A stretch of 64,000 nucleotides of DNA. Origin: Sphingorhabdus pulchriflava (lineage in GTDB: Bacteria; Pseudomonadota; Alphaproteobacteria; Sphingomonadales; Sphingomonadaceae). Of the stretch, positions 16,985 through 42,123 are shown in pieces. The position numbers and the translations under genes were made by a program. The notes below the pieces were generated by a model, which ran no database searches, was not told where the DNA came from, and saw only the letters and a program-made list of their open reading frames with translations. Numbering within the stretch: position 1 is the first letter of the stretch; each line of letters opens with the position of its first letter. The DNA lies in assembly GCF_003367235.1 (NCBI RefSeq), contig NZ_QRGP01000001.1:1364001-1428000 (forward strand), in the 5' to 3' direction.

Positions 16985-17063
16985 AACGGTTCTTTATTTG
17001 TTCTTATTGACAAACAGTAGTCGATGCAACCTTAGCCCCTTGGTGAAATTGCTCCGAAATGGA

Positions 17064-35799: not shown

Positions 35800-36612
35800 T
35801 TACGCTTCCGGGGCAGCTTCTTCTCTGGCTTCGGCAGCAGGGGCTTCTTCAGCCGCAACTTCGACGACGGCAGCTTCAACCGGCGGCTCTACCATCGCGC
35901 CAAGATCTTCACCGCGTGCTACAGCAGCACCAGTGTTGCCCTTGCTCGATGCGGTAGCAATAGCGTCGCAATAGAGGCGGATCGCGCGGGCCGCGTCGTC
36001 ATTCGCCGGAACCGGGAATGCAATGCCATCGGGCGATACGTTCGAATCGAGGATTGCTATGACGGGAATGCCAAGAACATTGGCTTCTTTGATGGCGAGT
36101 TCTTCCTTGTTGGCATCGATTACGAACATCACGTCCGGAATGCCACCCATGTCGCGGATGCCGCCAAGCGAAAGCTCAAGCTTGTCACGTTCGCGGGTCA
36201 TCTGAAGGATTTCCTTCTTCGTGAAGCCCGAAGTTTCACCCGACAACTGTTCTTCCAGCGTCTTCAGCTTCTTGATCGAGTTCGAAACCGTTTTCCAGTT
36301 GGTGAGCATGCCGCCCAGCCAACGGTGGTTGACGAAATGCTGACCCGAAGCGCGAGCTGCGTCAGCAATCGGCCCCTGCGCCTGGCGCTTGGTACCGACG
36401 AACAGGACCTTGCCACCTGCCTGTACGGTGGACGAAACAAAGTCGAGCGCCCGCGCAAAAAGCGGAACGGTCTGCGACAGATCAAGGATGTGAACGCCAT
36501 TGCGTGCGCCGAAAATATACGGCTTCATGCGCGGGTTCCAACGGTGGGTCTGGTGGCCGAAATGTGCTCCGGCCTCAAGCAATTGGTGCATGGTGACGAC
36601 AGGTGCCGCCAT
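35800..36612 (-). CDS. rpsB: 30S ribosomal protein S2
   Basis: 270 residues. The core is normal ([35 protein letters not shown], then MPDVMFVID-type [18 protein letters not shown]). The last 40 residues form an Ala/Glu-rich tail ([20 protein letters not shown]), frequent in sphingomonads. GGAAGGAG precedes the ATG. It is the first gene of the large minus-strand cluster. Confidence 0.97.
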
Positions 36613-41751: not shown

Positions 41752-41777
41752 TTGACACAATGGAACATATATAGAAC
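41752..41777 (+). promoter_or_regulatory. LexA-type box (GAAC-N7-GAAC) with -35 element
   Basis: GAAC at 41763-41766 and GAAC at 41774-41777 are separated by seven bases (ATATATA). This direct repeat is the alphaproteobacterial LexA box, GTTC-N7-GTTC read on the other strand. TTGACA lies just upstream (41752-41757), so the box covers the spacer and -10 region, where a repressor would block transcription of the gene at 41811. Confidence 0.65.
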
Positions 41778-41810
41778 ATTAGCCAAATACCAAGTGATTC
41801 GGAGGATCAA

Positions 41811-42062
41811 ATGTCATTCATCGCTGCAACCCTATTCGCTGTCGCCTTCCTGTTGTCGGCCTATGCCATCCTCCTGACGCTGGCACAAAAATGGGATCGT
41901 ATCGAACAGGTAGTGGCTATGCAGGGTTCCCCCGTCGAACGCGTCATTCATTTGGGCACGGTGCGCTACACAGGTCAGCGTCTGCGCCTCGTTGTTGTCA
42001 ACGAACTGGAGCCGCATCCCGAGCAACAGGCCTTCGCCTTTGGTCGCCTGCGCGCGGCTTAA
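41811..42062 (+). CDS. Small single-pass membrane protein, candidate SOS-regulated
   Basis: 83 residues. GGAGG lies five bases before ATG 41811. One uncharged membrane segment at the N-terminus (FIAATLFAVAFLLSAYAILL, residues 3-22) is followed by a basic flank (QKWDRIEQ) and a soluble tail with VERVIHLGTVRYTGQRLRLV, then a charged end. The positive flank favours a cytoplasmic C-terminus. I do not recognise the family. The LexA-type box upstream and a strong terminator downstream make it a one-gene transcript that DNA damage may induce, like the small membrane division inhibitor SidA of Caulobacter, though no homology is visible. Confidence 0.75.
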   Translation: MSFIAATLFAVAFLLSAYAILLTLAQKWDRIEQVVAMQGSPVERVIHLGTVRYTGQRLRLVVVNELEPHPEQQAFAFGRLRAA

Positions 42063-42083
42063 CCCCTCCCATCTTCCCCAAGC

Positions 42084-42123
42084 AAAAGGCCCTGCTGCAA
42101 TCCAAATGCAGCAGGGCCTTTTT
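42084..42123 (+). terminator. Strong intrinsic terminator after the small membrane protein gene
   Basis: AAGGCCCTGCTGCA (42086-42099) pairs perfectly with TGCAGCAGGGCCTT (42107-42120) over a seven-base loop, flanked by AAAA and TTTTT, so it may work in both directions. It begins 21 bases after the stop. Confidence 0.92.

Follow-up and report, generated by a model that had tools for sequence, protein, structure and literature searches.

A LexA-boxed gene for a small single-helix membrane protein, kept by promoter and position across the Sphingomonadaceae, as a candidate SOS division inhibitor

Within the 64-kb stretch of DNA analysed here (the window), a short transcription unit on the forward strand opens with a TTGACA -35 element (41752–41757), followed by an exact GAAC-N7-GAAC match to the LexA box at 41763–41777 (GAACATATATAGAAC, or GTTCTATATATGTTC on the opposite strand), a GGAGG ribosome binding site (41801–41805) and a gene for an 83-aa protein that extends from an ATG at 41811 to 42062 (stop included). 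It is closed by an intrinsic terminator at 42088–42123, composed of a hairpin (42088–42118; fold -32.2 kcal/mol, z -6.6) and a T run, which was not detected by a pattern scan, probably owing to its long loop. All of these elements had been named in a preliminary description of the locus, and each was recovered at the same position. A sigma-70 scan identified no standard -10 element, and the second LexA half-site overlaps the position where the -10 region is expected. Comparison of the 83-codon ORF with its four closest orthologs yielded Ka/Ks values of 0.05–0.11, indicating that it represents a real gene. The box in this promoter is of the GTTC-N7-GTTC form that characterises the alphaproteobacterial LexA regulon, and is the same as the Caulobacter LexA consensus (PMC12700426).

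AlphaFold2 predicts a single helix in the encoded protein (residues 2–37, with pLDDT values of 92–96 over residues 1–20), including a transmembrane segment at residues ~3–25 (41817–41885), in agreement with the one N-terminal membrane helix proposed earlier; the tail past approximately residue 43 has a pLDDT below 50. The protein ends in two alanines (...RLRAA; 42054–42059). The unit combines a LexA box with a predicted single transmembrane helix, as do SOS-induced membrane division inhibitors; the protein sequence has no match to a known division inhibitor. Searches of protein families, structures, plasmids and phages returned nothing usable, and the window protein has no match among phage or plasmid records. 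Two hits, to a holin (8.5e-4, for one of 40 members of the wider group described below) and to a photosystem helix (E 0.96), were set aside as they look like generic helix matches.

The box by itself is no rarer than chance, with three matches in the window against 1.9 expected, and 86 in the whole genome, where the reversed control gives 94; it is context and conservation that raise it above chance. In this genome, lexA, recA (with two boxes), recQ, radA and rmuC are preceded by boxes of this form, as are a radical-SAM gene and an imuA-like gene (named by eye, without a Pfam match), and the motif is therefore very likely to function as a LexA motif here. A gene of the window's genome for an S24-peptidase (LexA/CI-like) repressor (L038, 1501–2221) also carries its own LexA-type box. 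A second LexA-type box is present in the window at 16989–17003 (GTTCTTTATTTGTTC), outside any ORF of more than 120 codons, and has the same sequence as the one preceding the radical-SAM gene at C1:1159245.

A direct protein search over 99 genomes recovered the small membrane protein gene from nine genomes belonging to the genus, counting that of the window, with the orthologs ranging from 88 to 41% identity. GAAC-N7-GAAC is present upstream, in the same orientation, in 9/9 of these orthologs (including those at 41–44% identity), and TTGAC precedes the box in each; the distance from box to start codon is ~48 nt in the close orthologs and 92 nt in the distant ones. Furthermore, an HMM built from the genus proteins, and thus using no DNA, retrieved more distant matches within the family, nearly all of which carry the box upstream (L061 and L072 are without an exact box). 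The inspection of orthologs for an upstream box, suggested in the preliminary description as a check, thus strongly supports its claim that LexA controls the 83-aa gene. A search with a six-row protein alignment returned four named MAGs, three of them labelled Sphingorhabdus. Additionally, one member of the genus (G036) carries two tandem, diverged copies of the gene (L060 and L072; G036:C1:2190346-2191120), with an exact box before the second copy.

Genomes were then scanned for the full promoter pattern, TTGAC-N3-9-GAAC-N7-GAACA, which occurs in 40 of the 45 genomes from the genus and 131 of the 150 from the family Sphingomonadaceae; in the family genomes it gave 204 matches as compared to nine for the reversed control (totals summed from tabulated counts). 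Reading of 146 promoter loci, the last three batches of which were chosen for matches unlike uvrA promoters, placed a small single-helix protein after the promoter in 115 cases, uvrA in 13, lexA in six and other genes in 12 (a few uvrA genes being counted among these). Two of the 115 (L085 and L087) were false matches, leaving 113 small proteins, and the distance from TTGAC to the box is 6 nt in 87 of these 113 relatives. The design of a small membrane protein gene under a LexA box is thus family-wide. Where loci were read in other families of the order, the promoter precedes lexA, uvrA, GST-like and GFA-like genes and no such small protein; at L077, L078, L084 and L041, glutathione-transferase-like and GFA-family genes have LexA-type boxes in front of them. 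The box could be a chance match and the gene outside LexA control, as the frequency of the box in the genome would allow; however, its place and orientation are kept across genus and family, and the excess over the reversed control is large enough that this explanation appears most improbable. Judged from these sequence comparisons, the 83-aa gene is very likely under LexA control.

The position of the gene is also kept. In other genera, pssA, psd or both are found downstream and convergent at 82 of 84 loci, and rpsB lies upstream and divergent in 66 of 84, many of the stretches having spanned only 300 bases upstream. Of 29 loci in this genus, 28 have hupB and lon in the place of pssA and 20 have rpsB within 1.5 kb; in the window, rpsB (35893–36612) is 5 kb from the small membrane protein gene, separated from it by an AMP-ligase gene, an ORF of 138 aa, a gene for an M20 peptidase and one more ORF. 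Since the position is kept, the small single-helix proteins of the family, fast-changing as they are, would most simply represent one gene. The rpsB-adjacent place was sought beyond the family in 30 class-wide loci, and was seen only in a Sphingomonadaceae genome.

The sequences of the relatives evolve very fast. They barely align, which is why searches of Pfam, NCBIfam and PHROG missed them, and neither Pfam nor PHROG has a family for these proteins. The 113 relatives have a median length of 81 aa (5–95% range, 69–99), and in these the helix begins at the N-terminus, the N-terminal flank has a net charge of ~0 and the tail a mean net charge of +5.8. By the positive-inside rule, a neutral flank and a basic tail predict an N-out topology with a cytoplasmic C-terminal tail. 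When 40 diverse members were aligned, the only invariant columns were the last two alanines. An AA end, often within L-R-(A/L/V)-A-A, is found in 105 of the 113 relatives as compared to 13 of 272 background ORFs with a length of at least 250 aa (4.8%). The tmRNA of this genome encodes the tag ANDNEALALAA, ending in LAA, and the AA end of the small protein would fit an ssrA-like protease tag, making it a candidate clearance signal. Its fixed nature suggests that half-life may be a constrained trait of a checkpoint protein.

SulA of Escherichia coli, a cytosolic FtsZ-binding protein that Lon clears, bears no resemblance to the family described here, and the likeness is confined to the proposed role, i.e. 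an SOS division block relieved by proteolysis. Outside the enterobacteria, several SOS division inhibitors are small single-helix proteins, and the known SOS inhibitors of division that sit in the membrane target FtsW or proteins that work with it (PMC4211646, PMC13396833). Staphylococcal SosA and the YneA protein of Bacillus subtilis are SOS-induced, single-helix and of similar size to the present family, although no sequence relation was found, and YneA differs in carrying a LysM domain. sosA, like the gene described here, is kept by position at low identity (25–60%), and the extreme C-terminus of its product controls clearance by CtpA (PMC6851548), of which YneA is also a substrate (PMC6051672). 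The C-terminus of SosA is outside (PMC6851548), whereas charge predicts a cytoplasmic tail for the family here.

SidA of Caulobacter crescentus, a 29-aa inhibitor of division in the SOS response whose target is FtsW, shares with the family a small single-helix inner-membrane design (the helix being predicted here) and a GTTC-N7-GTTC LexA box. In the alphaproteobacterial order of genome G507, a TTGAC-N-GAAC-N7-GAACA promoter drives 30–34-aa helices beside dnaE, which are presumed to be SidA homologs on the strength of locus numbering, the offset between the CCNA and CC series that places sidA by dnaE being our assumption. The two loci concerned are sidA, CCNA_02004 (PMC10769358), and dnaE, CC1926 (PMC1839093). 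The same LexA promoter was observed before a 30–42-aa single-helix peptide beside dnaE (e.g. MWFKDAAAGVSLVVFVASSYLLVPVAQALLSSL) at L276–L279, L285–L287 and L298. Compared by eye, the presumed SidA peptides show no resemblance to the family, in line with the earlier remark that no homology to SidA can be seen. SidA and these peptides measure 29–34 aa, as compared to ~81 aa for the family and 83 aa for the window protein; the peptides have no long basic tail ending in AA, and they adjoin dnaE, unlike the family, which lies by rpsB and pssA/psd or hupB/lon. Thus, by size, tail or locus as read from sequence, the window protein is not a member of the SidA family. A common place for sidA and the present gene was considered, since in genomes of other orders a peptide with a LexA box is encoded near dnaE, in one of them close to rpsB; orientation and neighbours differ, however, making this a lead rather than orthology.

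The small protein is probably a checkpoint protein of the membrane, short-lived and repressed by LexA, which blocks division in a manner similar to SidA or SosA. We infer its membrane topology, proteolysis and target, and, by analogy with SidA, YneA and SosA, an arrest of division, along the following lines. LexA bound to its box would, given the position of the latter, block RNA polymerase between the -35 and -10 elements, until RecA triggers LexA cleavage and transcription yields a single unit ending at the gene's own terminator. The protein would then insert with its short N-terminus outside and its basic tail in the cytoplasm, as its charge suggests, and keep the septal wall machinery inactive, thereby pausing division. 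FtsW, FtsI or FtsN would be the likeliest target, an assignment by analogy that we regard as tentative. Once the damage is repaired, LexA would again repress the gene, and a protease recognising the C-terminal Ala-Ala would clear the protein, allowing division to resume; for a cytoplasmic tail the candidates are ClpXP, ClpAP or FtsH, and for an outside tail a Prc/CtpA-type protease. Several points speak against this reading: the lack of a match to any known inhibitor, the predicted N-out, C-in topology, which differs from that of SosA, a design of one helix and a basic tail that is too generic to point to a particular target, and the share of background proteins, approximately 5%, that have an AA end in any case.

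The same features may also be read in other ways. One reading is a membrane toxin induced in the SOS response and akin to TisB and DinQ, which would lower the membrane potential and lead to dormancy rather than block the septum. TisB and DinQ are likewise LexA-controlled single-helix peptides, but they are far shorter, controlled by antisense RNA and without an AA-ended tail, whereas the window protein is no very short hydrophobic peptide, having 83 aa, a long, basic and hydrophilic tail with a fixed AA end, and a gene with its own ribosome site and terminator. Such a toxin is therefore unlikely, even though LexA control of a small single-helix protein also fits DinQ (PMC3567139) and TisB (PMC11575346). 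Slightly less unlikely is an SOS-induced membrane protein with another job, such as envelope or phospholipid adjustment, for which the neighbouring pssA and psd of other genera would speak, or phage exclusion, as very fast sequence evolution is also seen in phage conflict. However, pssA is convergent and shares no operon with the gene, and hupB/lon stand in its place in this genus, while the lack of a phage or plasmid record matching the window protein argues against the latter.

No SOS division inhibitor of sphingomonads is described in the literature searched. On balance, we lean slightly towards a Sphingomonadaceae-wide DNA-damage checkpoint protein that would fill this gap, kept by its promoter, its position, one helix and a two-alanine protease tag, with the remaining sequence almost free. 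If so, its orthology would be visible through regulation and synteny only. For nearly every family genome read, the analysis provides one testable gene. The promoter signature additionally offers a simple means to find such genes in other clades; in the order of G507, the same LexA-type promoter was also seen to precede an ssb-like gene (L289, L295 and L297).
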